Positions 41,356 through 61,445 of a stretch of DNA of 64,000 nucleotides are shown piece after piece. The DNA lies in the NCBI RefSeq assembly GCF_003428625.2, contig NZ_QVQT02000001.1, positions 744,001 to 808,000 on the forward strand. Direction: 5' to 3'. Source of the DNA: Paracidobacterium acidisoli (GTDB lineage Bacteria > Acidobacteriota > Terriglobia > Terriglobales > Acidobacteriaceae). Within the stretch, counting starts at the first letter, position 1. Each line of letters begins with the position of its first letter. The notes under the pieces are model-generated. The model saw only the letters and a program-made list of their open reading frames with translations. It searched no databases and was not told where the DNA came from. The translations under genes and the position numbers were made by a program.

Positions 41356-42474
41356 TCAGGCGATGCCGATGACGGAGAGCATCCGGCCGGTGAAGCCCCT
41401 TTCGGCGCGATACGAAAAATAGCGGTCGTTGCGGCAGCTGGTGCATTCGCCGGTCACGGAGATGGCTGCCGCGGAGAGGCCCGCGTCGAGAAGCTGGCGG
41501 CGGTTCGCCTCGATCAGATCGAGATGCAGCGAGGGGCCAAGGTGGCTGTGCCCCGGCGCGCGCGCGGTAAGAAAGAGAAGCGGATACTTTTCGCGGATGG
41601 GGTCGGAGTCGGAGACTTCGCTGAAGAGCTCGGCGGCATAGACGAACTGCGACTCGAAGGCATCCCGCACCTCTTCCCCGACGGCATAGCAGCAGGGGCC
41701 GATGCCGGGACCGATGCCGGCGACGAGGTCTTCGGGGCGGCTGCCGAACTCCATGCGCATGCGGCCTACGCCGGCTTCGACGATGCGCTTCCAGGTGCCG
41801 CGCCATCCGGCATGAAAGGCGGCGACGGCGCGCTGTTTTATGTCGGCAACGAGCACCGGGATGCAGTCGGCGGTCTGAATGGCCAGCAGGACGCCGGGCT
41901 GATTCGTCATTATGCCGTCGGCCTTCCAGCGCGCGGTCCCGGCACAGTCCTCCCGGCCGACGACGCGCACCAGGCGGGAGTGGATCTGGCGGAGCGTCAC
42001 CATAGATGAAACGGGGGACGCAGCGGACGACGAGAGAGCCGGGCCGCCAGTCACTGCCTCGACAAAGCAGCGGCGATTCTCACGGACATTTTCCGGTGGA
42101 TCGGAGGCGGTGTAGCCAAGATTGAGCTCGCCGCGCTCCTGGCCCGGGGTATAGGCGGTGCTCACGCCGCCGGTTCGGGTGCTGAAGCCGTGACGGAGCC
42201 AGCCGATCTCCCTCCAGGCAGGGACCTGCAGAACGTCGAGTGCGGCGGGGATGGCGTGCAGCTCCTGCGATGGCGCATCCTCGTCCGGGCGAGTCGGGCT
42301 GGCCTGCGCCGCGGAGACGGACGGAGCCCTGTCCGGCTGCAGAGAGGCATGTTTGCGGGGGCTGCGGCGGAGTCCGGCCTGGGTAAGAAGATTGTCGATC
42401 CGGGAAAGGTCGGCAAGGGAAAGGTCGGGAAGGCCGGATGAAGGATCGGTTTCAGAAGCAGCAGGGGTGGGCAT
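41356..42474 (-). CDS. pgeF: PgeF / YfiH-type multicopper-fold purine nucleoside hydrolase
   Basis: A 372-residue protein whose C-terminal 290 residues form the YfiH (DUF152, 'laccase domain') fold. The three metal-site residues are in RQIHSRLV, QTADCIPV and AFHAGWRGTW. Such enzymes act as purine nucleoside phosphorylases or peptidoglycan editing factors. Homologues average about 250 residues; here an N-terminal extension of about 80 residues, Ser/Pro/Arg-rich, precedes QVPAWREIGWLRHGFSTRTG. It ends 13 bases from the convergent cysteine desulfurase gene. No Shine-Dalgarno; a -10 box lies 8 bases upstream. Confidence 0.85.
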   Translation of the reverse strand: MPTPAASETDPSSGLPDLSLADLSRIDNLLTQAGLRRSPRKHASLQPDRAPSVSAAQASPTRPDEDAPSQELHAIPAALDVLQVPAWREIGWLRHGFSTRTGGVSTAYTPGQERGELNLGYTASDPPENVRENRRCFVEAVTGGPALSSSAASPVSSMVTLRQIHSRLVRVVGREDCAGTARWKADGIMTNQPGVLLAIQTADCIPVLVADIKQRAVAAFHAGWRGTWKRIVEAGVGRMRMEFGSRPEDLVAGIGPGIGPCCYAVGEEVRDAFESQFVYAAELFSEVSDSDPIREKYPLLFLTARAPGHSHLGPSLHLDLIEANRRQLLDAGLSAAAISVTGECTSCRNDRYFSYRAERGFTGRMLSVIGIA

Positions 42475-42876: not shown

Positions 42877-44415
42877 TTAGGCTTCCAAATGCTCACTGCG
42901 GGCGGGACTTTCTTTCTCGATCTGCTGAATTTTATTCAGAAGCGCCTTATAGCTCACCCGGAGGCGCCGTGCCGCTTCGCGGCGATTCCATCGGGTCTCA
43001 ACCAGCATCTCCTCAATCGCCTGGCGCTCCGCCTGCCACGCGGCCCGGCGGCCGATTTCGAGCAGAGAGGGTTCGGCGAGAGCGGGCAGGAGGGCCGGCT
43101 CGCCATTCGGAAGGGATTCGACGGCGGGGATGGGGAGGTCCACCGGCGGGGACGCCGGAGACTCGACGGCACCCCGGCGCAGATGATGCTGGGCCAGCTC
43201 GCGGACGATCTGTGTGGCGTCGCCGACGATGACGTAGCGCTTGCAGAGGTTCTCCAGCTCGCGGATATTGCCGGGCCAGGAGTAGGCGGCGAGCTGCTGC
43301 ATGACCTCGTCGCCGGGAATGACGACGCAGCGCCGGTAGACGGCGGCGTATTTCTCGATGAAGTGGCGCAGCAGAACGGGAATCTCATCGCGCCGCTCCC
43401 GCAGAGGCGGGATGTGAATGGTGACGACGTTGATGCGATAGAAGAGGTCTTCGCGGAAGAGACCTTCGCCGATGCGCTGCTCGAGGAGCTTGTTGGTGGC
43501 GCAGAGGACGCGGACGTCGACGGCGGTGTCGCGGCGGGCTCCGAGGCGGGCGAATTCGCCGTCCTGCAGTACGTGGAGGAGCTTGGCCTGGAGGGCCGGG
43601 TGCATCTCGGCGATCTCGTCGAGGAAGAGGGTGCCTCCGTTGGCCAGCTCGAATTTGCCGGGCCGGGAGCGGTTTGCGCCGGTGAAGGCTCCGGCGTCGT
43701 AGCCGAAGAGCTCGCTTTCGAGCAGGTCATGGGGAATGGCGGCGCAGTTGACCTTGACGAAGGGCCGGCGGCTGCGATCGGAGCGGGCGAAGATGGTGCG
43801 CGCCACGACTTCTTTGCCGACTCCGCTTTCGCCGCGGATGAGCACGGTGGCGCTGGTGGAGGCGACGCGGTCGATGGTGAAGCGCACTGCCGCCATGCGG
43901 GGCGAGGTGCTGAAGAGACCGGGCAGGGTGGGGACGGGCTCGGCATCGGTCCGCTCGATATCGGCTGGCCGGGCGCCTTCGGTCTGCTCTGCCTGCCCTG
44001 AGTGGCTTCCGGATTCCGGGTACCGGCCGTTGCCTCCATGAGGGGGCATGCCCTCGTTCAGACCGTCGAGAACGGGGCGGAGACGGCGCGCAGCCTCTGC
44101 GGAATTGAGCGGCAGGGTGAGCATCTCAGCAGCGCCGCATTTGGCGGCATAAAAGGCGATGGCCGGCTGAGGAGGAACGAGGACGACGACGGGAAGGTCG
44201 GGAAATTCACGCTGCAGAACGGCGAGCGGACCGCCGGGAACGTGGAGCTGCAGCAGGACGAGATGGGGGACGGAGGCACGCACCTCGGCGGCAAGATCCT
44301 CCGGATGGACGATCTCGGCCCTGTCTCCGCGCGCGCGAAAAAGGGCGCGGAGAGCACTGCCGGCCTGCAGGTCGCAAACAGCCAGCAGTGCCCGAATCTG
44401 CTTGTGCTCGGGCAT
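42877..44415 (-). CDS. Sigma-54-dependent activator with degenerate receiver domain
   Basis: A 512-residue NtrC-type regulator. Residues 1-115 are receiver-like, but the phosphoacceptor Asp is Gln (Q56 in LVLLQLHVP). Residues about 165-390 are the AAA+ domain, with Walker A GESGVGKE, the sigma-54 contact loop GAFTGA and Walker B GTLFLDEIAEM. The Fis-type HTH is at the C-terminus (NRREAARRLRVSYKALLNKI). Without the acceptor, activity is probably ruled by ligand or protein binding. No histidine kinase is adjacent. A -10 box lies 9 bases before the ATG. Confidence 0.88.
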   Translation of the reverse strand: MPEHKQIRALLAVCDLQAGSALRALFRARGDRAEIVHPEDLAAEVRASVPHLVLLQLHVPGGPLAVLQREFPDLPVVVLVPPQPAIAFYAAKCGAAEMLTLPLNSAEAARRLRPVLDGLNEGMPPHGGNGRYPESGSHSGQAEQTEGARPADIERTDAEPVPTLPGLFSTSPRMAAVRFTIDRVASTSATVLIRGESGVGKEVVARTIFARSDRSRRPFVKVNCAAIPHDLLESELFGYDAGAFTGANRSRPGKFELANGGTLFLDEIAEMHPALQAKLLHVLQDGEFARLGARRDTAVDVRVLCATNKLLEQRIGEGLFREDLFYRINVVTIHIPPLRERRDEIPVLLRHFIEKYAAVYRRCVVIPGDEVMQQLAAYSWPGNIRELENLCKRYVIVGDATQIVRELAQHHLRRGAVESPASPPVDLPIPAVESLPNGEPALLPALAEPSLLEIGRRAAWQAERQAIEEMLVETRWNRREAARRLRVSYKALLNKIQQIEKESPARSEHLEA

Positions 44416-47988: not shown

Positions 47989-49296
47989 TCAGGCTTCGTC
48001 AGCGGCAAAGACACGCGTCAGAAGGCCGTGCTCTTCGGGATGACGCTCGCAGCGAGCGGCCCAGAAATAAAAGATCACGAAGGGCACGAAGAGAAACATG
48101 GCGACGTGCAGGTAGCCGATGTGGATGTTCGAGCCTCCGGCGAAGACGAGCGGGTAGACGATGCCGGCTGCTGTCGACAGGCCTCCGATGAATCCGGCAG
48201 CGGTGCCGGGGCGATCGGGAAACAGCAGCGGCACGAGCGCGAAGGTGCCGCCGGTTCCGCACGAGATGGTGATGCCGATGATGATGAGAACGGCCACGGA
48301 GAGATGCAGCGAGCCGGAGAGACCGGCGATGGCCAGAGCGCTGGTGGCAAGCGTGATGAGGATCAGTGAAGTGCCCAGCCAGTGCAGGCGCGGCGCGTAG
48401 GGCAGGTTGCGCGCGATAAAGGGCAGAGGCGTCCAGCCTTTGCGCTGGAAGAGATCGGACATGAAGCCGGAGAAGGGACGAAAGAGCGACGCGGTGAAGG
48501 ATTCGACCGCGGCGAAGGTTCCGGCAGCGATCTGCAGGCCGACAACACCGGTGAAGCCGAGGGACTGGATGGCGTCGTGGAAGCCGCGCGTGAAGTAGCC
48601 GGGCAGCCAGGCGTTGAGTGAGATCTCAAGACCAAAGGACATGGCGTAGGCGAGCATGAGCGCGATGGCGATGTAACGGCTCCATACGAATGCCGTGTCG
48701 CGCATGCCGCTGCGACCACGCACCAGATCGCGCTGCCCGGTGGTTTTGGCGGCGCGGCCGCGCACCAGATAAAGCGCCGCGATGAAGAGAGCGACGACGC
48801 CCATCCACAGAAACGCGCTTTGATAATGCGTGCCGAAGAGGCGCGGCAGCACCAGGGCGCCCATGCCGGCGCCGGCATTGCCTGTGCCCGCGTAGAGTCC
48901 TTCGGCGGTGCCGATTTCATGAGGATCAAACCACTGCGCGACGTGCTGGATGCCGACGACGAAGGAAACGCCGGCGATGGCCACGAAGATGCGCTCGGCA
49001 AAGAGCAGACGATAGTCCACGGTGAATGCCGAAGCGATCGACATGAGGCCGCAGCCTGCGAGAAGCAGCGCGAAGGTGCGCGGCGCGCCGAAGCGGTCGG
49101 AGGCCCAGCCGGCGGCGATGCGGCCGATGGGAGCCATCCAGATGGCGGAGCTGGCGAGCAGACCGAGCGATTTGATGCTGAGGTGGTAATGCGCCGCGAT
49201 GCCGGGGCTGAATGCGGCGGTAGAGAACCACATGAGGAAGCACCAGAAAAAACCCAGCGTTGCAATAACGAGCTGCTCGACCTTATGCGTAGTCAT
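47989..49296 (-). CDS. NarK/NasA-type nitrate/nitrite MFS transporter
   Basis: A 435-residue, 12-helix major facilitator. The N-terminal half has FSPGIAAHYHLS and GRIAAGWASDRFGAPRT; the C-terminal half has the glycine-rich signature GTGGTFALVPLLFPDRPGTA followed by GFIGGLSTAAGIVYPLVF, typical of nitrate/nitrite porters. ATG 49296 has GGAGAAGAGAAG upstream; the longer frame to 49425 adds no transporter sequence. Divergent from the nitrate reductase genes, which supports nitrate uptake. Confidence 0.88.
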   Translation of the reverse strand: MTTHKVEQLVIATLGFFWCFLMWFSTAAFSPGIAAHYHLSIKSLGLLASSAIWMAPIGRIAAGWASDRFGAPRTFALLLAGCGLMSIASAFTVDYRLLFAERIFVAIAGVSFVVGIQHVAQWFDPHEIGTAEGLYAGTGNAGAGMGALVLPRLFGTHYQSAFLWMGVVALFIAALYLVRGRAAKTTGQRDLVRGRSGMRDTAFVWSRYIAIALMLAYAMSFGLEISLNAWLPGYFTRGFHDAIQSLGFTGVVGLQIAAGTFAAVESFTASLFRPFSGFMSDLFQRKGWTPLPFIARNLPYAPRLHWLGTSLILITLATSALAIAGLSGSLHLSVAVLIIIGITISCGTGGTFALVPLLFPDRPGTAAGFIGGLSTAAGIVYPLVFAGGSNIHIGYLHVAMFLFVPFVIFYFWAARCERHPEEHGLLTRVFAADEA

Positions 49297-49720
49297 CGCT
49301 TCTCTTCTCCAGTGAGGGAGTTGAAACGGCCTGCCGATGGAGCGGGTTGTTGCGCGAGCGCAGTGTGTGCATCGCTGCGGCTGCGACGGAGGCTCATGCA
49401 TCGGCACGGCGAACGTTTGTTCCATGCAGCGGTGTCTTCATGCAGCGTGGGCGTGCGCATGTCTTCATGAGACGGCACACTCAGCCGCAGCGGATCGACC
49501 GATGCTCGTTCGAGGCTTGCGCGTTCAGGGCGCGAATCTTTTTCCGACGTAAACTCTCGCGCGGATCACGGCGAGAAGAACCGGCACAGGCATGGTGCCG
49601 AAAAACAGGAAGCTGTTCAGGCGAGAGTATCGCAGTGCCGCCTGCGTGGCAAGGAAAGATTGCGGCGTGCGCGCAGAGGATGCATTTGTGGCAGGCGGTG
49701 GATCAGCTTGCGGAAATATC

Positions 49721-49826: not shown

Positions 49827-49849
49827 GCCGGCACCAGGTCTGTGCCGGC
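49827..49849 (+). promoter_or_regulatory. Leader hairpin upstream of nas genes
   Basis: Perfect 8-bp stem GCCGGCAC / GTGCCGGC with loop CAGGTCT, 123 bases before ATG 49973. The core GGCACC-N5-TGTGCC is also present at 57682-57698 in the nirA leader. A candidate RNA element for the ANTAR regulator, although the loop is 7 nt rather than the hexanucleotide expected. Confidence 0.4.
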
Positions 49850-49877
49850 TGGATCTCTCCACGATGAGCCTGTGCCC

Positions 49878-49896
49878 CGAAAGCTGATTGCTTTCG
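49878..49896 (+). promoter_or_regulatory. Second leader hairpin upstream of nas genes
   Basis: 7-bp stem CGAAAGC (49878-49884) / GCTTTCG (49890-49896), loop TGATT, 28 bases after the first hairpin. A paired-hairpin layout is what ANTAR proteins bind in known leaders; the loop here has 5 nt. Confidence 0.35.
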
Positions 49897-49972: not shown

Positions 49973-51514
49973 ATGGAATTGCCTCTGCTGATCCGGGCAA
50001 AAGAAGATGATGCCGGAGAACAGTTTCTGCTGACGCAGATCACCGATGCGCAGAACGCGTGGCCTTCCGTGCAGCTTACGCCGGGCAGGATGCCTCTTCC
50101 CGGCGAACAGTTCCGCTTTCACCTGGATATGACGCAGTGCATCGGCTGCAAGTGCTGCGTGGTGGCGTGCAACGAGCAGAACGGCAATCCGGCGGAGATC
50201 CAGTGGCGGCGCGTGGGCGAGATCGAAGGCGGCGTTTATCCGGATACGATGCGTCACTATCTCTCGATGGGCTGCAACCACTGTCTTGAGCCGACATGCA
50301 TGATCGGCTGCCCGGTGAATGCGTACACGAAAGATCCGCTGACGGGCATTGTGCTGCACAATGCGGAGCGCTGCATCGGCTGCCAGTACTGCACGTGGAA
50401 CTGCTCCTATGGCGTGCCGCAGTTCAATCCGGAGCGCGGCGTGGTGGGCAAGTGCGACATGTGCTACGGGCGGCTGACCGACGGGCGCGAGCCGGCGTGC
50501 GTGGCGTCGTGTCCGGAAGCGGCGATTCGCATTGAGATCGTGAACCAGGAGGAGTGGCGGCGCGAATATGCCGGGCAGGCCAACGCGCCGGGGCTGCCGA
50601 ATGCCGATGACAGCATCTCGACGACGAAGGTGACGATACGGCACCAGCTGCCGCGCGATATCGGCCGCGTGGATACTTCGCGCGTGGAGCCGGAGCATGC
50701 GCACTGGACGCTGATCTTCATGACCGTCTTTACGCAGATGGCGGTGGGCGCGATTGCGTCGATGTCGGCTGCGCAGTCGATTGCGCGGACGACGATCGCG
50801 CGCGTTCCCGCAGCGGGCGTGGTGCTGATCGCGCTCTTCGCGCTGGGCGCGTCGACGCTGCACCTGGGAAGGCCGATCTATGCCTTTCGCGCGCTCAGTA
50901 TGTGGCGTCGCTCGTGGCTGAGCCGCGAGGTGCTCTTCTTCTCGCTTTTTGCGAATGCGGCCATCGCTTACGCCGGGCTGCTGTGGATTGGATCGCGGGC
51001 GAGCCTGATGACAGGCGTGGCGGCGGCGGCGTTGGGAGCGATTGCGGTGTATGCGAGCGCGCGGTTGTATGTGGTGGCGGCGCGGCCGGCGTGGAACAGC
51101 ATCCACACGGTCTTCGAGTTTTATTTATGCGCCGCTTTTACCGGGCCGCTGCTGGCGTCGCTGTTTACAACGAAGCCGAGGCACACGCTGATTCATGCCG
51201 CCACGTGCGGCGTGCTGGCTTTGCTGATACAGCAGGTGGTGAAGTTCCTGTGGCTGCGGCATTCGGCGGTCTTCGAGCTGCGGGCCTCCGGTGATCTGCT
51301 TCGTCACCGGCTGCTTTCCCTGTTCTCGCTTCGCCTCGGCAGCCTGGCGGCGATTGCGCTCGCGCTGATCTTTGCCTCCGGCAGTGTGTGGATTCGCGCG
51401 GCGTGCCTGGCAGCGGCGATTGGAGCCGAGTTGCTGGGGCGGTATCTGTTTTTCGTGAGCGTGGTACCGAAGAATATGGCCGCACCCTATCTGCGGGGGA
51501 GGCACGCCGCATGA
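49973..51514 (+). CDS. Fused Fe-S (DmsB/NrfC-like) and DmsC-like membrane anchor subunit of nitrate reductase
   Basis: A 513-residue fusion. Residues 50-200 carry four [4Fe-4S] Cys groups: C56/C59/C62/C66 in CIGCKCCVVAC, then CNHCLEPTCMIGC, CIGCQYCTWNC, and CDMCYGR with CVASC. Residues about 240-510 form about eight membrane helices resembling the DmsC quinol-binding anchor. No Tat or Sec signal, so the Fe-S part is cytoplasmic. It would pass electrons from the quinol pool to the NasA-type subunit, whose ATG overlaps this stop (ATGA). Classic assimilatory reductases use ferredoxin or NADH partners, so this arrangement is uncommon. Confidence 0.85.
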   Translation: MELPLLIRAKEDDAGEQFLLTQITDAQNAWPSVQLTPGRMPLPGEQFRFHLDMTQCIGCKCCVVACNEQNGNPAEIQWRRVGEIEGGVYPDTMRHYLSMGCNHCLEPTCMIGCPVNAYTKDPLTGIVLHNAERCIGCQYCTWNCSYGVPQFNPERGVVGKCDMCYGRLTDGREPACVASCPEAAIRIEIVNQEEWRREYAGQANAPGLPNADDSISTTKVTIRHQLPRDIGRVDTSRVEPEHAHWTLIFMTVFTQMAVGAIASMSAAQSIARTTIARVPAAGVVLIALFALGASTLHLGRPIYAFRALSMWRRSWLSREVLFFSLFANAAIAYAGLLWIGSRASLMTGVAAAALGAIAVYASARLYVVAARPAWNSIHTVFEFYLCAAFTGPLLASLFTTKPRHTLIHAATCGVLALLIQQVVKFLWLRHSAVFELRASGDLLRHRLLSLFSLRLGSLAAIALALIFASGSVWIRAACLAAAIGAELLGRYLFFVSVVPKNMAAPYLRGRHAA

Positions 51515-53697
51515 AGATCCGCCGCCTGCTGGGACTGGATATTGCGCGGGAGAAGTATGCGTTCGCCAAAGATGCGGCGGTGGGGCACATCTCCGCGCAG
51601 AGGGTAGCGGACACGTGGGTGAAGACGACGTGCGGCTACTGCTCGGTGGGCTGCGGGATGCAGATCGGCGTGCGCGAGGGCAAGGTCGTGACTTCGCGGG
51701 GCGATCAGAACCATTCGGTCAATCGCGGCAAGCTGTGCCCGAAGGGGCTGGCGGAGCACTACGTTCTGAACGCGGAGAATCGCGCGCGCTATCCTCACCT
51801 TCGCGGAAAGAACGGCCTCGAGCGGATTTCGTGGGAGGAGGCGCTGGGCACGATGGCGGGCGAATTCCGCCGCGTTGCGGAGAAGTACGGGCCGCAGGCG
51901 ATCGGCGTCATCAGCACGGGACAGCTGGTTACGGAAGAGTTTTACACGCTGGGCAAGCTGGTGCAGCTTGGGCTGGGCACATCGAATTTCGACGGCAATA
52001 CAACGCTCTGCATGTCGACGGCGGTTTCCGGGTACAAGCGCTCGTTCGGCAGCGACGGGCCTCCGGGCGCTTATGAAGACTTCACCAAAGCCGAGGTGAT
52101 TCTGCTGATCGGCGCCAACATTGCGGAGAATCATCCGATCCTCTGCCAGCATCTGGATGCGAATACGAAGAAGACGCTGATTGTGGCCGATCCGCGTGTC
52201 TCGAAGACGGCGATGATGGCCGATATTTTTCTGCCGGTAAAGCCGAGGTCGGATCTGGCGCTGGTCAACGGCATCGCGCACATTCTCATCCGGGACGGGC
52301 TGATCGACCGGGAATATATCGACCGGCACACGAACGGCTTCGACGAGCTGTGCCGCTTTCTGGATAAGTACGATCCGGAGTACGTGAGCGGCATTACGGG
52401 ACTGAGCACGGAGCTGCTGGAGAGGGTGGCGCACCTTTACGGCAAAGCGAATGGCGCTTTCATCGGCTGGACGATGGGCGTGAATCACAGCTCCAAGGGC
52501 ACGGAGACGGTGAATGCGATCAATAACCTCGCGCTGCTGACGGGCAACGTGGGACGCGTGGGCGGATCGCCGTTTTCGATCACCGGGCAATGCAATGCGA
52601 TGGGCACGCGCGAGACCGGCTTCACCTCAAGCCTGCCGGGGTACCGCAAGTTCGAGAACGAAACAGACCGCGAAGAGCTGGCGAGCCTGTGGGGCGTGGC
52701 CGTCGAGCGCATTCCGACACAGCGGGGGCTGGCGTATCCGGACATCATCAGCGCGGTGCTGCGGAAGAAGATTCGCGCACTGTGGATCATCGCGACGAAC
52801 CCGCTGGTCTCGTTTCCGAATATCGATGTGCTGAAGCAGGCGCTGGGCGAGCTGGAGTTTCTTGTGGTGCAGGATTGCTTTCATCCCACGCCGACGACGG
52901 TGCTGGCGCATATGGTGCTGCCGGCGGCTGCGTGGGGCGAAAAGGAAGGCACGTACACCAACTCCGAGCGCCGCGTGAGCAAGGTGAATGCGGCGGTGCC
53001 GCCTCCGGGTGAGGCGCTGAGCGACTTCGATATCTTTCTTCGCCTGGCCGGGGAGCTGGGCTGCAGAGAAGAGCTGTTTCCTGGATGGAAGGAGCCACGC
53101 GACGCATTTGAAGAGTGGAAGCGTGTATCGGAGGGAAGGCTCTGCGACTACTCCGGCATGACGTATGAGGTGATGGAGGCATACGGCGGCATTCAGTGGC
53201 CGTACCCGAAGAACGCAGACACGGCGCCGACGGCTGCGCGGCGGCTTTATACCGATGGCGTCTTTGAGACGGCGGATGGAAGAGCAAAGCTGATCTGCGC
53301 GGAATGGGAGCCGTTTCCGGAGCAGCCCTCTCAGGATTATCCATTTGTGCTGAATACCGGCAGAACGGTCGAACACTGGCATACGCGCACGAAGACGGGA
53401 GCGATTGCGATTCTGGAGCAGATCGCACCGCGCGCCTGGCTGGAAATGAATCCGGTGGACGCGAAGCGGCTGATGCTGCGGCCGCACGATCTGGTCGATA
53501 TCGTGTCGACACGCGGGCGGGTGCGCAGGGTGGAGCTGCGCGTGACCGAGGTGATTGCACCGGGTCAGGTCTTTGTGCCGTTCCACTTTGCCGAATGGAA
53601 CATCAACGAAGTGACGCAGGATATCTTCGATCCCATTTCGCGGGAGCCGAATTACAAACAGTGCGCGGTGCGCGTGGAGAAGGCAGCGTCAGCGTAA
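51511..53697 (+). CDS. nasA: Assimilatory nitrate reductase catalytic subunit (NasA/NapA-type molybdoenzyme)
   Basis: A 728-residue molybdopterin guanine dinucleotide enzyme. The [4Fe-4S] cluster ligands are C41, C44, C48 (CGYCSVGC) and C76 (GKLCPKG). The Mo ligand is C167 in NTTLCMSTAVSGYKRSFGSD, as in Nas/Nap nitrate reductases; formate dehydrogenases have Cys/SeCys in a different context. No Tat signal, so cytoplasmic and assimilatory. It lacks the C-terminal [2Fe-2S] domain of some NasA proteins; electrons should come from the overlapping fused membrane subunit. Confidence 0.9.
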   Translation: MKIRRLLGLDIAREKYAFAKDAAVGHISAQRVADTWVKTTCGYCSVGCGMQIGVREGKVVTSRGDQNHSVNRGKLCPKGLAEHYVLNAENRARYPHLRGKNGLERISWEEALGTMAGEFRRVAEKYGPQAIGVISTGQLVTEEFYTLGKLVQLGLGTSNFDGNTTLCMSTAVSGYKRSFGSDGPPGAYEDFTKAEVILLIGANIAENHPILCQHLDANTKKTLIVADPRVSKTAMMADIFLPVKPRSDLALVNGIAHILIRDGLIDREYIDRHTNGFDELCRFLDKYDPEYVSGITGLSTELLERVAHLYGKANGAFIGWTMGVNHSSKGTETVNAINNLALLTGNVGRVGGSPFSITGQCNAMGTRETGFTSSLPGYRKFENETDREELASLWGVAVERIPTQRGLAYPDIISAVLRKKIRALWIIATNPLVSFPNIDVLKQALGELEFLVVQDCFHPTPTTVLAHMVLPAAAWGEKEGTYTNSERRVSKVNAAVPPPGEALSDFDIFLRLAGELGCREELFPGWKEPRDAFEEWKRVSEGRLCDYSGMTYEVMEAYGGIQWPYPKNADTAPTAARRLYTDGVFETADGRAKLICAEWEPFPEQPSQDYPFVLNTGRTVEHWHTRTKTGAIAILEQIAPRAWLEMNPVDAKRLMLRPHDLVDIVSTRGRVRRVELRVTEVIAPGQVFVPFHFAEWNINEVTQDIFDPISREPNYKQCAVRVEKAASA

Positions 53698-53730: not shown

Positions 53731-55425
53731 TCAGGAGGGCTTAACAGCTGCGGCGCGGCGAAGCTCGTCGCTGAGAATGACGGCCTCGGCGATTTCACGC
53801 ATGCTCTTGCGCCGCTGACGGCTCTCCTTCTGCATCATGCGATAGGCGTCTTCTTCCTTGATATTGTGATCGCGCTGCAGAAGGCCCTTGGCGCGCTCGA
53901 CCAGTTTGCGGGATTCAAGCTGACCGGAGAGCGCGTTCTTTTCGCTCTCAAGACGAGCCATTTCAATTTCGGCGCCGACCAGGAAGCCGACGGTGGAGAC
54001 AGTCTGCACCTCCCACGGCGTGTAGTGATGCGGCTGGCGATGCTGCACGTTGATGACGCCGACGAGGCCGCCGCGGGCGAGGATGGGCACGGACAGAAAG
54101 GCTTCGAAGGAATCTTCAGGAAGATCCTGGAAGGACTGAAAGCGCGGATCGCGCAGCGCGCCGGAGTCGATGGAGACCGGCTCCCGGTGCTCGGCGACCC
54201 AGCCGGTGATTCCCTGCCCGATCTTCAGGCCGAGGTGATCGATGACGTCGGGGTGGGGATTTTTCGAGCCGCGCAGCACGAGCTGATTCTCTTCGAGCAC
54301 GTAGATGAAGCAGGAGTCGCAGCTCAGAAGCGTTTCAATAAAGCCGACGATCTGGCTGAGCACGGCGTGCAGCGGATCGGAGGAGGCCATCCGGCGGCCG
54401 ATATCGTGTACGAGCTGAATGGCGCTCAGATGGCGTGTGTCGGGCGGCTGCGCCGCTTCCGTGTCGCGCGGGGCGGCGGGCGCGGGAGCCGGTGAGGCTG
54501 CACGCGGCGAAGGCACAAGAGCCGGACGGCTTCCCTGCGCGGCGGTGTCGAGACGCGCCAGCACGGCGCTGTGAGGGGCGGGCCCGCGCTTTTCCTCAAG
54601 CAGCTTTGCCGCTAACTCCGATGCCTCATTCATGAGGAAGCCCATCTTGGGGTGCGACGGCTCGAAGTCGGGCTCGACGCCGTGGCGCGCAAGCTCTTCC
54701 GATGTGCTGGGGCCGATGGAGAGCACGACGGTGCGGCGCATGCCTTCGCGCAGCGCATCGGCGGCGTTCATCTGCTCGGCGACGCGGAAGAGATGGGAGA
54801 CCTGAATCGCCGTGAGAAAGATGATGACATCGAGCTGGCCGGCGATGATGGAGCGAATGGAATTCCGCAGCGGCTCGAGGTCGTCGGGGAGGGCCCACTG
54901 ATAGACCGGGACACGCGTGTACTGCACGTGATGGCGGGTGAGGGCTTCGAGCAGCTCGGGGTTCGGAGTGCCGTACTCCTGCACGGCCGCGCGAAGACCT
55001 TCGAGCGAGGGGCCGAAGGCGCCGTCGAGAGCGTCGATCATCTCGCGCCAGGTGCAGGGCTCGGGCGCGGTGACGGCGACGGGAAGACCCATTTCACGCA
55101 CGGCGGCGCTGGACTTGGGGCCGCGCGTCGCCAGCTTTACGTGGCGCAGCGATTCGATGATGCGGGCGCGGTCGTAGCGGGAGGAGACGATCTCCATGAG
55201 CCGCCTGACGCCGACGCCGGTCATAAAGATGATCAGATCGAATTCGCCGTGGAGGAGACGCCCGGCAAACTCCAGCGCTTCGTGGTTCGATTCGAGTGGA
55301 ATCTCGCGCAGAGCGGATGCGACGACCGGCTCGCCGCCATAAGTGCGGATCAGCTTTTCGATCTCCGCAGCGCGACGATTCTCGAGCGCCAGAACCCGTA
55401 ACCCATTGAAGCTGCCAAACGCCAT
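53731..55425 (-). CDS. HemD-GAF-ANTAR fusion regulator of nitrate assimilation
   Basis: A 564-residue fusion. Residues about 1-275 are uroporphyrinogen-III synthase-like (HemD: two lobes with IIFMTGVGVRRL, IIFLTAIQVSHLF and SIGPSTSEELARHGV). A Pro/Ala linker follows (about 280-330). Residues 335-490 are a GAF domain (IGQGITGWVAEHREPV, FLSVPILARGGLVGVINV). Residues 502-556 are ANTAR (SRKLVERAKGLLQRDHNI, EDAYRMMQKESRQR, SMREIAEAVI), an RNA-binding antiterminator output. HemD-like parts occur in known nitrate regulators (NnaR) with a DNA-binding tail; here the output is RNA-binding. It lies between nas and nir genes and probably senses nitrate, nitrite or tetrapyrrole. Confidence 0.85.
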   Translation of the reverse strand: MAFGSFNGLRVLALENRRAAEIEKLIRTYGGEPVVASALREIPLESNHEALEFAGRLLHGEFDLIIFMTGVGVRRLMEIVSSRYDRARIIESLRHVKLATRGPKSSAAVREMGLPVAVTAPEPCTWREMIDALDGAFGPSLEGLRAAVQEYGTPNPELLEALTRHHVQYTRVPVYQWALPDDLEPLRNSIRSIIAGQLDVIIFLTAIQVSHLFRVAEQMNAADALREGMRRTVVLSIGPSTSEELARHGVEPDFEPSHPKMGFLMNEASELAAKLLEEKRGPAPHSAVLARLDTAAQGSRPALVPSPRAASPAPAPAAPRDTEAAQPPDTRHLSAIQLVHDIGRRMASSDPLHAVLSQIVGFIETLLSCDSCFIYVLEENQLVLRGSKNPHPDVIDHLGLKIGQGITGWVAEHREPVSIDSGALRDPRFQSFQDLPEDSFEAFLSVPILARGGLVGVINVQHRQPHHYTPWEVQTVSTVGFLVGAEIEMARLESEKNALSGQLESRKLVERAKGLLQRDHNIKEEDAYRMMQKESRQRRKSMREIAEAVILSDELRRAAAVKPS

Positions 55426-55626: not shown

Positions 55627-57126
55627 TCAGTTGGCGGAGACTTTTTGCGCTCTGCCCCACTGATAGACCAGCTCCACGTAGCCGTACTGCGCATCGCGAT
55701 CGGAGGGGTAGATTTTGCCGATCACGCTTTTGCCCGAGACGTGCGCGTAATAGAAGTTGACGGCGACATCTTTGGCGGCCTGCCAGTCGGCGCTGACATC
55801 GGCGACGGAGGCGAAGGAGGTGTGTCCGTTGCCGGGGCGGCCGGTGTAGCCGAAGACTTTATTGTCGTACGCGCCGCCGCCCTGATACCAGAGGTCGTTG
55901 CCGGAGGTGAGCTGCAGCCAGTGCAGATCGCTGCGCAGAGCGAGCCGTTTGGAGGGGCTGTCGATGATCTGAACGAACTCGTCGGTGCTGTTCATCAGGT
56001 TGTAGAAGGGGATGCGGGCGTAGATGCGCGGCGTGGGAAGAATCTGGAAGAAGGTGTGGTGCTCGTTGTCGGCCGCGTTGTTGTCGCCGCTGCTGCGGAA
56101 CCATCCGCCGCGGAGCCAAGGCGCGCTGGCGACGCTGCTGAGCTGATAGCCGCCTTCGACTGCTGCCGCATTTGCGCTGTGACTGAGGGCTCCCCAGCTT
56201 CCGTTCTGCAGCGCTCCCCAGAAGAGGAAATCGAAACGGCCGGGGCCAGCGGGCGCGGATGCGAGAAGATTGCCGCCCCAGGTGCCGATGCGGATGTTGC
56301 CGTGATCGGCGGCGCGGACGGCGAGCGCGCGATTGTCGGTCTTCGTGAGGCCGGTGCGGCCATCGTGATAACCGACGGCGAAGGCACGCCACAGAAGATG
56401 CTGATGGGCCGTGGTCTGAGTGAAGGCGAGGTACTGAAGATCGACGTTCAGCTCGGGATTGCCGTTCATGTTGAAGACGCCCTGATCGGCGCGGGCGGCA
56501 ATGGCGGTGATGTCCCAGCGGCCTGCGCCATAGTGGCCATCGGCACCGTCGAAGCTGCGCTGCGCGTTGGAGAATCCGAAGTTGCCGATGAGGCGGTGCG
56601 CGATGCGGTTGGTCTGCAGCCATGCGAGGGTGGCGTCTTTCGGATGGGTCTCCTGCCCGTCGATGAATTCGAAGCGGCCGATGCGAAGGTTTTTATCGCC
56701 GCCGTGGAAGTGATAACGAAGAAATCCCTGTTTGAGAAAGGCCGCGGCAGGATCGGTATCGCTGGCATTGGAGGCGTAATACGTGGCTCCCAGACCAAGC
56801 TGGCCCTGCGCGGTGACGGGCGAGACGGCATCATCGGGCAGGCCGAGAACAGCGGGCTGCGAGAGCTCAAGCTGCCAGTCCCAGTGATGGATGCGCCGGG
56901 CGACGCCGAGACGAACGAGAGATTCGGCGTAACCGTAGGTCTCCGTCTCGGGCGGCGCGGCGAACCACTGCCAGGCGTTGACACGGGTGCGGTCGTACAC
57001 GGAGATGCTGACGGGAAGAGTGCCCGATGACGGCTGCTGCGTCTGCGCGCGCGCAGAGGTCCGCACAGAAATCAGGGAGAGCAGCGAAACAGCTACAGAT
57101 ACAGCAAAGCGATACTTTCTGAACAT
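55627..57126 (-). CDS. Alginate-export-family (AlgE-like) outer-membrane porin
   Basis: A 499-residue protein with a signal peptide (VSVAVSLLSLISVRTSARAQ) and a long run of alternating hydrophobic strands typical of an 18-strand beta barrel, including the alginate-export family pattern LRIGRFEFIDGQE and ending YGYVELVYQWGRAQK. Its site inside the nitrate island suggests nitrate or anion passage through the outer membrane; this is inference. Three repeats (57150-57218) lie just upstream of its start. Confidence 0.75.
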   Translation of the reverse strand: MFRKYRFAVSVAVSLLSLISVRTSARAQTQQPSSGTLPVSISVYDRTRVNAWQWFAAPPETETYGYAESLVRLGVARRIHHWDWQLELSQPAVLGLPDDAVSPVTAQGQLGLGATYYASNASDTDPAAAFLKQGFLRYHFHGGDKNLRIGRFEFIDGQETHPKDATLAWLQTNRIAHRLIGNFGFSNAQRSFDGADGHYGAGRWDITAIAARADQGVFNMNGNPELNVDLQYLAFTQTTAHQHLLWRAFAVGYHDGRTGLTKTDNRALAVRAADHGNIRIGTWGGNLLASAPAGPGRFDFLFWGALQNGSWGALSHSANAAAVEGGYQLSSVASAPWLRGGWFRSSGDNNAADNEHHTFFQILPTPRIYARIPFYNLMNSTDEFVQIIDSPSKRLALRSDLHWLQLTSGNDLWYQGGGAYDNKVFGYTGRPGNGHTSFASVADVSADWQAAKDVAVNFYYAHVSGKSVIGKIYPSDRDAQYGYVELVYQWGRAQKVSAN

Positions 57127-57218: not shown

Positions 57219-57559
57219 TCCACCTGACGCCCGGCTGCGAAACAGCGCGGGGACGAGTTAAAACTCAGGTAAGAGCTGCGGCCTGCGATCAGGCCTCGGC
57301 TGCGTCGGGTGCTGAAAGACACACAGGCGCAGAGGCGTCGGAGGCGAGCCCGGATCAGGCTGCGATGTCGAAGCTGCTCAGCGGAGAGCGGAAGAGATCA
57401 CTGCGGGTCAAACAGCGGACACAGCATGGTGTCCTTTGGAGCTGTTGCTTTCGAACAGCAATAGCACAGGCATTTCGACATTTCAAGCAATATTCATAAA
57501 GACCGCGCATGGAAAGGCTGAGACAACGGAGGCCGTGAAATATGCGGCGGTGCAAAGAT

Positions 57560-57679: not shown

Positions 57680-57700
57680 ATGGCACCCCGCCTGTGCCAT
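57680..57700 (+). promoter_or_regulatory. Leader hairpin shared with nas leader
   Basis: ATGGCAC / GTGCCAT, 7-bp stem, loop CCCGCCT. It contains GGCACC-N5-TGTGCC exactly like the nas leader hairpin at 49827-49849. Confidence 0.4.
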
Positions 57701-57858
57701 TTCTCTGAAGCGATTGCGCCATGCGGCGCGGTTGCTCTTTCACTGCTCCAGGACGAGCCATACGGACGTCAGGCCCACGCCGGGCCGGCACCCTTTCCTT
57801 TGCACATCTGTGCCTGTGGAATGGCCAAACGCAGTCTTCGCCTGGAGGAGTACACAAC

Positions 57859-59649
57859 ATGGCATCGCCCGCGGACTCGATTCCCAGAGAGCTACAGGAC
57901 ACTTTCACGCTCGAACAGAAGGAGTATCTGGATGGATTTCTTCTCGCTGCTGCAAAGCGGGGACAGACCTTCTTTGCCGGGCACACGGCGAATGGACTGA
58001 TTACGGCCGATGCGGCTTCGGGCGCCGATAACCAGGCGGCGGCGAAGGAAGAGACTTACTTCGGCACGCCGGTCGAGGACCTTTGCAGGGAAGAGCGCTG
58101 GAAGCGCGAAGAGAATCCGCTCGATGTGTGGGACAAGCTTCTGGCGCATGCGGAAGAGAACCGCTTTCCGGAAGCGGCCGATCTTTTTCGCTTTAAATTT
58201 CACGGGCTGTTCTATGTCGCTCCGGCGCAGGACTCGTTTATGCTGCGGCTGCGGACGCCGGGCTGCATTCTGACGGCGCACCAGATGCGCGGACTGGCCG
58301 ATATGGCCGAGGCATGGGGCGCGGGCGAGGCGCACGTCACCACACGCGGCAACCTGCAGATCCGCGAGTTTCAGCCGAAGGACATAATCCGCGTGCTGAC
58401 AACGGTGCAGAGCCTGGGCATGAGCTCGCGCGGCACGGGCGCGGACAATATCCGCAACGTTACGGCTACGCCGACGAGCGGCCTCGATCCGCATGAGCTT
58501 TTCGATGTGGCTCCGCTGGCGCAGGCGCTGAACTTCTACATTCTTAACTCACGCGATCTTTACGGGCTGCCGCGCAAGTTCAACGTGGCCTTCGACAGCG
58601 GCGGCGCGGTGAGCATTGTGGCGGACACCAACGACATCGCCTTTATCGCGACGCGTGTTCCGCCGGGACGCAGTGTTCCGGAGGGCGTTTATTTTCGCGT
58701 GCAGCTTTGCGGCATCACCGGGCATCGCCAGTTCGCGGAAGACTGCGGTCTTCTGCTGACGCCGGGCCAGACGGTAGCCGTTGCGGCGGCGATGATTCGG
58801 GTGTTCACAAATCACGGCGACCGCACGGACCGCAAAAAAGCGCGGCTGAAATATCTGATCGACCGCTGGGGCGTGGAGAAATTTCTGGAGGAGACGGAGA
58901 AGCGGCTCGATTTTCCGCTGCTGCGCTTCCCTCTCGCAGAGTGCGAGCCGCGTGCCGCTGTCGATCAGCAGGGGCATCTGGGCGTGCATCCGCAGCGGCA
59001 GCCGGGAATGTTTTATATCGGCGTTGCGGTGCCGGTGGGAAGGCTGAGCGCGGAGCAGATGCGCGCGATAGCGAAGATCGCGGAGACCTTCGGCTCAGGC
59101 GAGATTCGTCTTACCGTCTGGCAGAATCTGATTCTGCCGCATATCGCAGCAGACAGGCTGAAGGCGGCGCGGCAGGCGATTGCGGATGCGGGGCTGAGCG
59201 ATGCCGCCGGCGCGTTTACGGCAGGAGCGGTGGCCTGCACCGGCAACAAAGGCTGCCGCTTTGCAGCAACGGATACGAAGACGCATGCGATCGCTCTGGC
59301 AGGCTTTCTGGATGAGCTCTTCCCGATCATGCAGCCTGTCAATCTGCATGTGACCGGTTGCCCGCACTCATGCGCGCAGCATTACATCGGCGATATCGGA
59401 CTGATGGGCGCGAAGGTCGGCGGCGATGAGGGTTATCAGGTGCTGATCGGCGGCGGCTCCGATGACCGGCAGGGGCTTGGCCGCGAGCTGATCTCCGCAG
59501 TTCGTTTTGCAGATCTGCCACCGCTGATGGAAAGACTCTTCCGGGGCTTTTTTGAAAAGCGCGCGGGAGATGAATCGTTTCTCGCGTTTACGCGCAGACA
59601 CCCTATCGAGCAACTGAAAGACCTGATGGCTGTTGAGGAGCAGGCGTAA
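57859..59649 (+). CDS. nirA: Siroheme [4Fe-4S] nitrite reductase (NirA type)
   Basis: A 596-residue nitrite/sulfite reductase family enzyme that reduces nitrite to ammonium with six electrons. Both ferredoxin-like halves are present. The siroheme/cluster Cys residues lie in VACTGNKGCRFA and VTGCPHSCAQHYIGDIG (C-x5-C and C-x3-C). ATG 57859 is fixed by GGAGGAG 8 bases upstream; the longer frame adds unrelated sequence. The stop is 2 bases before the diflavin reductase start, so the electron donor is probably that protein and not ferredoxin. Confidence 0.92.
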   Translation: MASPADSIPRELQDTFTLEQKEYLDGFLLAAAKRGQTFFAGHTANGLITADAASGADNQAAAKEETYFGTPVEDLCREERWKREENPLDVWDKLLAHAEENRFPEAADLFRFKFHGLFYVAPAQDSFMLRLRTPGCILTAHQMRGLADMAEAWGAGEAHVTTRGNLQIREFQPKDIIRVLTTVQSLGMSSRGTGADNIRNVTATPTSGLDPHELFDVAPLAQALNFYILNSRDLYGLPRKFNVAFDSGGAVSIVADTNDIAFIATRVPPGRSVPEGVYFRVQLCGITGHRQFAEDCGLLLTPGQTVAVAAAMIRVFTNHGDRTDRKKARLKYLIDRWGVEKFLEETEKRLDFPLLRFPLAECEPRAAVDQQGHLGVHPQRQPGMFYIGVAVPVGRLSAEQMRAIAKIAETFGSGEIRLTVWQNLILPHIAADRLKAARQAIADAGLSDAAGAFTAGAVACTGNKGCRFAATDTKTHAIALAGFLDELFPIMQPVNLHVTGCPHSCAQHYIGDIGLMGAKVGGDEGYQVLIGGGSDDRQGLGRELISAVRFADLPPLMERLFRGFFEKRAGDESFLAFTRRHPIEQLKDLMAVEEQA

Positions 59650-59651
59650 TT

Positions 59652-61445
59652 ATGTCGCAGACACTTGTGCCTTTTATTCCCGAGGATGCACCGTTCACGC
59701 CGGCACAGCGCGCCTGGCTGAACGGGTTTGTTGCCGGTCTTTACTCCTATGCTCCGGCACCGGCGGCGGAAGCGCCGCAGGCACTGCGGCTGGCGGTGCT
59801 CTACGGCTCGCAGACAGGAACGGCTGAGGGCCTTGCGCGCAGACTGGCGAAGGAACTGAAGGCCGCGGGCCACACGGTTTCGATGAGCTCTCTCGAAGGA
59901 TATGTTCCGGCCACGCTGGCGGCTGAGACGTACGCACTCTTTATCGTCTCGACGTATGGCGAAGGCGAAGCTCCGGATGCAGCACAGCCGTTTTACCAGC
60001 AGCTTTGCGTCGAACACTTTCCGCTGCTCGGCGGCCTCTCGTATGCCGTGCTCGCGCTGGGCGATTCGCACTATGAGCATTTCTGCCAGTTTGGAAAAGA
60101 GCTGGACGCGAAGCTGGAAACACTGGGCGGCACGCGCATTCTGCCCCGCGTGGACAGCGATGTGGATGTGGATGCTCCCTTCACGGGATGGAAGGATGCC
60201 GCAGTGAAGAAGCTTCGCGAGCTGGCGTCTCCGCCGGGCATGCCTGCGAGTGGCGAGGCTGTAGCCGCCACAGGCGAAACGCCTGCTCCAGGCGCGACGG
60301 CCGGACATGCCGCAGGACCGGCGCATACGCGGGATAATCCGTATCTGTCGCCGCTTGCGGAGAAGCGCGCGCTGACGCATCCTTCTTCAAGCAAGCTGAC
60401 GATTCACCTGGACTTTGCCATCGAGGACTCGGCGATTCAGTACGAGGCGGGCGACGCATGCGGCGTGGTTCCGCAGAACCATCCCAGGCTTGTGGATGCC
60501 GTTCTTGCGTCGCTGCCGTTCAGCGGCAGCGAGATGGTGGAGATTCCGAGGGCCGGCAGCATGACGCTGCACGAGGCTTTGCTTCGGCGTTTCGCTATCT
60601 CCCGGCTGAGCCGCAAAATAATTTCGCAGTATGCCGCGGCGGCGCAGTGCACGAAGCTGACGGCGCTGCTGGCTCCGGAGAATCAGACGGATCTCGAGCA
60701 GTATCTGCACGGGCGTGATCTGGTCGATCTGCTGAGAGAGTGCCCCGACGCGCTGCAGACGCCGGGGGATCTGGTGAAGATGCTGTCGCTGCTGACGCCG
60801 CGGCTGTATTCGATCTCATCGAGTCCGGTGGCGCACCCAGGGCGAGTGCATACGACGGTGTCGGTCGTACGCTGGCGCGCGCATGACCGCGACCGCGGCG
60901 GCGTCTGCTCCACGCTGCTGGCCGACCGCATCGAGATCGGAGACCGGCTGCCGATTTACATCCAGGCGAACAAGAAATTTCGCCTGCCGCAGGACCCGAA
61001 GGTTCCAGTGATTATGATCGGACCGGGCACGGGGATTGCTCCCTTCCGCGCCTTTCTTCATGAGAGGCGCGCGATCGGAGCAACGGGAAAGAACTGGCTG
61101 TTCTTCGGAGAGCGCAGCGCCTCCACCGACTTTCTGTATCGTGAGGAGCTGGAAGGCATGCAGGCGGATGGGCACCTCAGCCGGCTGGATACGGCCTTCT
61201 CGCGCGATCAGGAGCAGAAGATCTACGTGCAGGACCTGATGATGCAGAACGGGCAGCAGTTGTGGGGATGGCTGGAGGAAGGCGCTTTTCTCTACGTGTG
61301 CGGCGATGCCTCCAAAATGGCGAAGGACGTGGACCGGACGCTGCGCCGCATTATCGAGACGCAGGGAAAGATGCCGGAAGAGGCCGCTGAGAGCTACGTT
61401 CAGGCGCTCAAAGATAACAAGCGCTATCAGCGCGACATTTACTGA
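59652..61445 (+). CDS. CysJ-type diflavin reductase, probable electron donor to NirA
   Basis: A 597-residue FMN/FAD reductase. Flavodoxin part about 45-185 (LYGSQTGTAEGLARRLAKEL, IVSTYGEGEAPD), Ala/Gly/Thr-rich linker about 190-225, FAD part with RLYSISSSP, NADPH part with IGPGTGIAPFRAFLHER and YVCGDA, and the closing RYQRDIY typical of CysJ. CysJ normally serves sulfite reductase CysI; here it sits directly behind nirA, so NADPH-driven nitrite reduction is the better reading. It lacks any cysI or cysH neighbour. Confidence 0.88.
   Translation: MSQTLVPFIPEDAPFTPAQRAWLNGFVAGLYSYAPAPAAEAPQALRLAVLYGSQTGTAEGLARRLAKELKAAGHTVSMSSLEGYVPATLAAETYALFIVSTYGEGEAPDAAQPFYQQLCVEHFPLLGGLSYAVLALGDSHYEHFCQFGKELDAKLETLGGTRILPRVDSDVDVDAPFTGWKDAAVKKLRELASPPGMPASGEAVAATGETPAPGATAGHAAGPAHTRDNPYLSPLAEKRALTHPSSSKLTIHLDFAIEDSAIQYEAGDACGVVPQNHPRLVDAVLASLPFSGSEMVEIPRAGSMTLHEALLRRFAISRLSRKIISQYAAAAQCTKLTALLAPENQTDLEQYLHGRDLVDLLRECPDALQTPGDLVKMLSLLTPRLYSISSSPVAHPGRVHTTVSVVRWRAHDRDRGGVCSTLLADRIEIGDRLPIYIQANKKFRLPQDPKVPVIMIGPGTGIAPFRAFLHERRAIGATGKNWLFFGERSASTDFLYREELEGMQADGHLSRLDTAFSRDQEQKIYVQDLMMQNGQQLWGWLEEGAFLYVCGDASKMAKDVDRTLRRIIETQGKMPEEAAESYVQALKDNKRYQRDIY

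Follow-up and report, generated by a model that had tools for sequence, protein, structure and literature searches.

A HemD-GAF-ANTAR fusion protein as a probable leader-RNA regulator of nitrate assimilation in Acidobacteriota

What is the function of a protein that carries a fold of the siroheme pathway at one end and an RNA-binding antiterminator domain at the other, and that is encoded among the genes for nitrate assimilation? This question is raised by an open reading frame (ORF) at positions 53731–55425, on the minus strand, of the 64,000-nucleotide (nt) stretch of Paracidobacterium acidisoli DNA analysed here (the window; contig NZ_QVQT02000001.1, positions 744,001–808,000). The ORF encodes 564 amino acids from an ATG start and is free of internal stops. 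It had been proposed, in a sequence-only reading, to be a HemD-GAF-ANTAR fusion within a nitrate assimilation island, and the island is borne out by its neighbours: narK, the operon of an iron–sulfur (FeS)/DmsC-like gene and nasC, a porin gene, and nirA with cysJ. We propose that the fusion is very probably a one-component regulator of the ANTAR type, which controls nitrate/nitrite assimilation by acting on leader hairpins.

The three domains are indeed joined in one protein, all with Pfam E-values below 1e-16. A HEM4 domain of the uroporphyrinogen-III synthase (UroS) fold occupies residues 21–262 (54640–55365; PF02602, E 1.1e-34, 120 bits against a cut-off of 27.5), followed by a GAF domain at residues 352–487 (53965–54372; PF01590, E 2.6e-17) and an ANTAR domain at residues 499–550 (53776–53931; PF03861, E 3.1e-17, 62.5 bits against a cut-off of 27.3). 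The Pfam search matched no NIT domain at E 0.1 and no C-terminal DNA-binding domain, the ANTAR domain being located in its place. Because the protein can be aligned over its full length with 21 homologous fusions (22 rows), it is the product of neither chance nor a frameshift. In the AlphaFold model based on this 22-row alignment, with a mean predicted local distance difference test score of 78.7 and a predicted template modelling score of 0.47, the UroS-like domain is followed by a low-confidence linker (residues 282–349), the GAF domain, a single long helix (residues 470–520) and the ANTAR helices; the latter score makes the relative placing of the domains uncertain. The top Foldseek matches of the model are UroS structures from Thermus (1wd7, E 3.4e-16; 1wcx), which also supports the HEM4 assignment, and GAF domains come next. 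PRK07239, which we take to be the NnaR-type model, gives 128.4 bits over residues 7–270, under its cut-off of 273.

Does the HemD part sense a tetrapyrrole or make one? An active UroS that feeds siroheme to NirA would agree with the retained fold and with UroS-aligned stretches such as VQEYG and IGPSTSEEL, and a cobA-like methylase gene is located 3′ of the fusion in 4 of the 79 fusion loci described below. However, the HemD part scores far under the NCBIfam UroS equivalog cut-offs (best 134 versus 233 bits), a second and much stronger HEM4 protein is encoded elsewhere in the same genome (C8:17746, 203 versus 122 bits for the fusion), and the analogous HemD domain of Streptomyces NnaR is reported to lack HemD activity in a paper on mycobacterial NnaR (PMC6277429). 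An enzymatic role is therefore considered unlikely, and we infer that the HemD part serves as a sensor.

How would the ANTAR domain recognise RNA? In the structure of EutV with RNA, G4 of the hairpin loop is the sole base read specifically, by Tyr164 together with Arg142, Lys149 and Glu160, A1 is left uncontacted, and the loop is plugged by an essential residue, Met172 (PMC8934654). In our alignment with EutV, NasR, Rv1626 and AmiR, and by our own residue mapping, R506, K513, E524 and Y528 of the fusion correspond to Arg142, Lys149, Glu160 and Tyr164 of EutV; the first three are invariant, and Y528 nearly so, among the 22 aligned fusions. The plug position is Met in NasR, EutV, Rv1626 and AmiR, and Arg in 22/22 aligned fusions as well as in all 74 of the 79 loci that could be read with a script anchored on the SR motif.

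The RNA that such a domain might bind was sought in the leaders of the nitrate genes. The ANTAR targets reported in PMC3369931 have A1/G4 loops and are mostly located upstream of nitrogen genes. Canonical A1/G4 tandem targets were rejected: only 2 of 16 nirA leaders had a candidate and neither was conserved, that of the window (score 23.0, with a 95% shuffle bound of 18) lying 476 nt upstream and including the reverse complement of the porin P2 hairpin described below, and that of L054 being weak (10.0). Conserved in the 16 nirA leaders read are two paired hairpins, P1 and P2, which in a 16-sequence alignment take the form GGCAC[loop]GUGCC, with compensatory changes, and GCUC[loop]GAGC, respectively. 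P1 shows two-sided changes at four pairs and a covariation score that was reached by 0/500 shuffles, and 94.4% of its cells are paired versus at most 46.9% for slid structures. The P2 stems of the training alignment were picked by pattern, and P2 covariation is uninformative since the stem itself was the selection pattern. P2 was searched for independently of any model as CUC[N6]GAG, 40–200 nt upstream of the genes and with the loop bases left free. The motif was found in 42/49 nirA and 17/30 FeS leaders, with C1 and G4 in all 59 loops, A5 in 52 of them, and variable bases at positions 2, 3 and 6. After removal of leaders more than 80% alike, it was retained in 38/45 nirA and 17/29 FeS leaders, again with C1 and G4 throughout. 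Loops of 6 nt were found in 42 nirA leaders, compared with at most 3 leaders for each other length between 3 and 10. Upstream of the fusion gene itself, the motif was found in 2/79 loci.

A second model-independent test addressed both hairpins together. When 16 combinations of loop positions 1 and 4 were tested for tandem hairpins in the 49 nirA leaders, C/G was found in 16 leaders, the next best combination in 1 and A/G in 0, with C/G in 9/600 random segments from the same loci. This test, which demands perfect hexaloop stems, gave C/G in 2/30 FeS and 0/17 porin leaders. A more permissive scan, some picks of which are doubtful, found two hairpins in 34/49 nirA leaders, with P1 loops of 6–8 nt (the range permitted by the scan) and linkers of 15–35 nt in 21 of the 34, longer than the 5–12 nt given for eut targets in PMC3369931.

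In the window itself, such hairpins precede three operons. The porin leader, on the minus strand, contains the P1 hairpin GGACAC[CAUGCU]GUGUCC at 57417–57434 (44.2 bits with the hairpin model R1, of which it is a training sequence) and the P2 hairpin GCUC[UCCGCU]GAGC, with U at loop position 1, at 57376–57389. In the nirA leader, on the plus strand, P1 is GGCAC[CCCGCCU]GUGCC with a 7-nt loop at 57682–57698 (R1 24.1 bits, E 0.0076, non-training), an alternative or additional P1, GCGAUUGCGC[CAUGCG]GCGCGGUUGC, lies at 57710–57735, and P2, GCUC[CAGGAC]GAGC, lies at 57745–57758. The nirA ATG at 57859 agrees with this leader and with the relatives better than does the longest ORF, which would begin at 57721 and take in P2. 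The FeS/nasC leader, also on the plus strand, has the P1 hairpin GCCGGCAC[CAGGUCU]GUGCCGGC with a 7-nt loop at 49827–49849 (R1 20.6 bits, E 0.06, non-training) and the P2 hairpin CUC[CACGAU]GAG at 49857–49868. Upstream of narK, on the minus strand, there is a P1-like hairpin, CGGCAC[CAUGCCU]GUGCCG, at 49582–49600 (R1 13.5 bits, E 4 genome-wide), without a clear P2. An Rfam search of positions 42000–64000 at E 5 returned no relevant family.

Are these hairpins specific to nitrate genes? Among the 150 genomes of the family survey, 13 contributed training sequences to R1. In the 5 Mb genome to which the window belongs, the three best R1 matches are the porin (E 5e-8, training), nirA and FeS/nasC leaders, all within the island, and the next match elsewhere has an E-value of 0.12. 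The proposal of the sequence-only reading that the nitrate genes are controlled at the RNA level is thus well supported as far as sequence can support it, the three best matches in the genome being the tandem hairpins before the porin(-fusion), nirA and FeS/nasC operons. In the window and the 79 loci together, R1 gave 46 matches at E 0.05, of which 43 are on the sense strand and 39–254 nt before nirA (31), FeS (6), porin (5) or nirB (1) genes, positions that account for 7.2% of the sequence space. Seven of the 46 coincide with training places, and 37 of the other 39, matched by contig, are so placed. Among the family genomes, 18/150 have a match at E 0.003. With the training genomes excluded, a match was found in 3/12 fusion genomes and 2/125 others (Fisher p 0.005). 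In three of these five genomes it is located before nirB (G066 and G137) or before FeS-nasC-nirB (G077).

An alternative interpretation is that the hairpins are in fact DNA operators, the dyad GCTC-N6-GAGC being bound by a dimeric DNA-binding regulator to which the fusion is unrelated. Inverted repeats separated by 6 nt do resemble a common operator, and the sites are located 39–254 nt before the genes. But the spacer is asymmetric and oriented, with C1 and G4 always on the sense strand in the nirA and FeS leaders, and G6, which a symmetric operator would favour, occurs in 0/59. Moreover, a second hairpin lies immediately upstream, with a G4 loop of its own and compensatory pairs, and the sense-strand placing of 43 of the 46 R1 matches points the same way. 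We consider the operator interpretation very improbable.

By what readout would binding at the leader hairpins control expression? In the window, a terminator-like hairpin, GGCCC[ACGCC]GGGCC, with CCCUUUCCUUU 4 nt beyond its end, is located between P2 and nirA at 57772–57786 on the plus strand (score 23.4 versus a shuffled mean of 9.0). The hairpin after P2 in the FeS/nasC leader, CGAAAGC[UGAUU]GCUUUCG at 49878–49896 on the same strand, 9 nt before CUUUUCG, is a weak terminator candidate, its score of 16.9 falling below the shuffled mean of 18.6. L105 and L106 belong to the loci most closely related to the window, and in their FeS leaders the 3′ arm of P2 is base-paired within a stem that continues into runs of U (U5 and U4), as expected for classical antitermination. 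These two stems with their U runs, together with the terminator-like hairpin of the window nirA leader, make antitermination the likely readout from a sequence point of view, although the overlap between P2 and a terminator is weak across the leaders overall. In a terminator scan, 43/62 leaders scored above their own shuffled means (mononucleotide shuffles), which is too weak to claim. The stem that would sequester the 3′ arm of P2 (anti-P2) has a mean of 0.63 in nirA leaders versus 0.47 in shuffles, with 12/35 in the top tenth, and RNAalifold on 15 and 7 leaders recovered P2 alone. A long anti-P2 stem as a universal terminator was rejected, since it is strong in some nirA leaders (e.g. L158, L162, L168, L174 and L179) but not in FeS leaders.

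The readout might instead be Rho-dependent termination, RNA stability or translation. A good U-tract follows the alternative stem in only a few leaders, and actinobacterial ANTAR RNAs are described as acting at translation or transcription (PMC8164766). On the other hand, terminator-like hairpins follow P2 not only in the window nirA leader but also in the FeS leaders of L104 and L106, the stems of L105 and L106 reach U runs as described above, and P2 lies more than 100 nt before most nirA starts. Such a readout is possible, yet we think it doubtful.

Taken in the order of the polypeptide, antitermination by the fusion could proceed as follows. The HemD-like and GAF domains would sense effectors, in the case of HemD probably a siroheme-branch tetrapyrrole and in that of GAF a small molecule. 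The signal would pass along the long GAF-ANTAR helix and alter the dimerisation or exposure of the ANTAR domain, the dimer of which would bind the two hairpins, the second with the loop C1-N-N-G4-A5-N or near to it, in the nascent nas, nir and porin-regulator leaders. It is not hard to imagine that this binding would shift the balance from an alternative fold that stops transcription towards the second hairpin, so that expression would proceed.

Which bacteria possess the fusion, and does it always accompany nitrate genes? It was found in 23 of the 150 family genomes (the genome of the window included), intact in 21 and split over two frames in two (G017 and G100), and many other family genomes encode a standalone GAF-ANTAR protein, a HemD-like protein, or both. 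Scanning named genomes, with coverage of the best 80 of 269 relatives and no statement on absence elsewhere, gave full-length fusions at 79 loci, almost all labelled Acidobacteriota. Some of the loci among L102–L180 are the same places as L034–L056, and the metagenome-assembled genomes named Rhodanobacteraceae (L152 and L158) may carry a wrong label. Fusions are also present in family f5 (L214 and three alike, by BLAST and reading, without a Pfam run), and in G240, of family f7, HemD-like and GAF-ANTAR proteins are encoded by adjoining separate genes, with a fused copy elsewhere in the genome. At the 79 loci, the recognised gene that most closely precedes the fusion is nirA in divergent orientation in 23, a porin gene on the same strand in 18, an FeS gene in divergent orientation in 11, same-strand nirB or nirD in 4 and a divergent porin gene in 1, with none in 22. 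Nitrate genes lie close to the fusion at 43 of the 61 loci that exceed 9 kb. In a tree of 75 fusions (the window and 74 loci, five loci having escaped the reading pattern), the 55 nitrate-linked and 20 other rows are separated by 10 changes, compared with 17.7 for shuffled labels. Eight non-nitrate fusions form a starred group of their own (L116, L118, L120, L129, L139, L146, L157 and L177), several of which are from Edaphobacter.

A number of observations weigh against the fusion as the regulator of nitrate leaders. The link with nitrate genes expected by the sequence-only reading stood for the 43 loci above and failed for the other 18 of the 61, so that the fusion cannot always be tied to nitrate genes. 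In line with this failure, NirB was not matched at E 1e-60 in two genomes with the fusion, G129 and G063 (NasC was not sought there), whose NirA matches are only 34–35% identical and probably represent sulfite reductase. The neighbours in 17 non-nitrate fusion loci revealed no shared target, although some gene families recur in 3–7 loci. In 17 of the 18 non-nitrate loci over 9 kb (L153 left out) as well as in L043, L047 and L048, no good hairpin was found, the best having an E-value of 0.06. The R1 scores of the window nirA and FeS leaders are themselves modest (E 0.008 and 0.06), and the R1 matches at E 0.003 are present in only 14/23 fusion genomes and also in 4/127 others. Two of the five matches in non-training genomes are ill placed, one about 1 kb before a porin gene (G039) and the other (G123, E 0.0024) beside unrelated genes; the latter was rejected as likely chance, its neighbours resembling an aldehyde dehydrogenase and a class II aldolase by reading, without a family search. 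The porin leaders are mixed, with CUC[N6]GAG in 7/17, G4 in 4 of those 7 and C1 in none. The anti-P2 stem of FeS leaders does not exceed shuffles (0.40 versus 0.48) and is absent from the window FeS leader (0.01). Furthermore, loop position 1 is C where known ANTAR targets have A, and R536 of the fusion is located at the position of the essential Met172 of EutV. Finally, a standalone GAF-ANTAR protein of the same genome, C9, possesses the same Arg and could be the binder instead.

This last point deserves closer consideration, that is, the leaders might be bound by a standalone GAF-ANTAR paralogue, or by both proteins, rather than by the fusion alone. C9 is 60% identical to the fusion over query residues 331–559 and shares its SRQRR motif. 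At L062, nirB is followed by NirD-like and transporter-like ORFs (by reading) and a standalone GAF-ANTAR gene without a fused HemD, and the leader has a weak hairpin of 18.1 bits. Standalone proteins with Gln at the plug position directly precede Amt ammonium transporter genes at L066 (5435–8391) and L069 (6148–8875), where the Amt leaders contain dual hairpins that are similar but differ in their loop bases. Nevertheless, of the 18 family genomes in which a hairpin was matched, 14 have the fusion, and C9 adjoins an esterase gene. Binding by a paralogue is for these reasons rather unlikely in our opinion, and the fusion remains the favoured regulator. A third ANTAR match in the same genome, C12, is a SIS/GKRP-type protein with a partial match of 31.2 bits (cut-off 27.3) and was taken as false.

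Does the plug residue determine the loop? Gln was found at the plug position in five standalone GAF-ANTAR proteins (L066, L069, L201, L207 and L216; sets of 11 and 23 were read), and in the hairpins after four such genes the P1 loop starts with G and the first base of the P2 loop is mixed. Five Gln cases are too few to claim a loop code, yet the code becomes testable. As a tentative and rather speculative extension, we suggest that the fusion represents a new class of ANTAR-RNA recognition, in which HemD would read a siroheme-branch tetrapyrrole and the ANTAR loop code would be switched, with an Arg plug going with C1-G4-A5 loops, Met with A1-G4 loops and Gln with P1 loops starting with G. If this were true, synthesis of the nitrate and nitrite reductases would be limited to conditions in which the cell is able to supply their cofactor.

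The other genes of the island are as follows. A NarK-family-like nitrate/nitrite transporter is encoded at 47989–49425 on the minus strand (MFS_1 E 5.9e-24; TIGR00886 140.6 bits, under its cut-off of 311.7). The nas operon, on the plus strand, is headed by a single protein at 49973–51514, in which, by profile searches, a DmsB-like FeS part is joined to a DmsC-like membrane anchor; this partner of the nitrate reductase hints at quinol-linked assimilatory nitrate reduction. The NasC-like molybdopterin enzyme follows on the same strand at 51388–53697 (longest ORF, the start being probably further in). It has Molybdopterin domains and gives 508.7 bits with the NasC model (cut-off 1100), its best model being formate dehydrogenase alpha; since it lies under every listed NCBIfam cut-off, the label nitrate reductase rests on similarity and context. 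Directly upstream of the fusion, and on the same minus strand, Pfam identifies an outer membrane porin of the Alginate_exp family (55627–57126), and the two probably constitute one operon. This porin, which may be a nitrate or nitrite porin, recurs beside the fusion and can have its own hairpin leader. On the plus strand, the siroheme nitrite reductase NirA (57859–59649) is above its NCBIfam cut-off (820 versus 523 bits) and is followed by a CysJ-like NADPH flavoprotein (59652–61445, profile searches), its probable operon partner. The pairing (57859–61445) recurs in many fusion loci, suggesting a nitrite reductase that is driven by NADPH, with a sulfite-reductase-like build, and is not ferredoxin-dependent. 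A regulator of the sigma-54-activator type (NifA/NtrC-like) is encoded at 42877–44415, a few kb from the island.

The fusion would provide a concrete, testable switch of nitrate assimilation for a group of soil bacteria, and it links a fold of the siroheme pathway with control at the RNA level. A further suggestion is that ANTAR targets extend beyond the A1/G4 loops underlying known searches, so that other ANTAR regulons may be overlooked, and the exchange of a Met for an Arg plug along with that of A1 for C1 loops offers a direct test of protein-RNA specificity.

How does the fusion compare with known systems? No description of the HemD-GAF-ANTAR architecture was found in the open-access literature, most subscription papers being outside the search, which agrees within that literature with the novelty claimed by the sequence-only reading; in 2012, according to PMC3369931, no GAF-ANTAR protein had yet been characterised. 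The Klebsiella regulator NasR (NIT-ANTAR) resembles the fusion as a one-component ANTAR regulator of nitrate assimilation that acts on a two-hairpin leader RNA (PMC7496416 and PMC3369931); the fusion differs in its sensor (HemD and GAF rather than NIT), its loops (C1/G4 rather than A1/G4) and its Arg rather than Met plug. NnaR of mycobacteria and Streptomyces likewise has a HemD-like N-terminus on a nitrate/nitrite regulator, with a separate HemD in the genome. However, NnaR binds promoter DNA, whereas the output domain of the fusion is an ANTAR domain of the RNA-binding type, with a GAF domain in addition. Rv1626 and AmiR share the ANTAR domain and differ by Met at the plug position, and their sensor arrangements are not that of the fusion. 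HemD-like proteins on Deinococcus plasmids are 35–39% identical to the N-terminus of the fusion and are encoded beside nirD in at least seven records; in that of D. taeanensis (L230:2088–5825), nirB-nirD is followed by a HemD-like protein, which, unlike the fusion, is a standalone protein of 277 amino acids without GAF-ANTAR. EutV, a response-regulator ANTAR protein (RNA complex 6WW6), has in common with the fusion the ANTAR fold, the G4-contact residues, the long helix before the ANTAR domain and a dual-hairpin target, but it carries a receiver domain in place of HemD-GAF, needs Met172 and has target loops with A1. The fusion would therefore represent ANTAR regulation with a new sensor architecture and, apparently, a new loop specificity.

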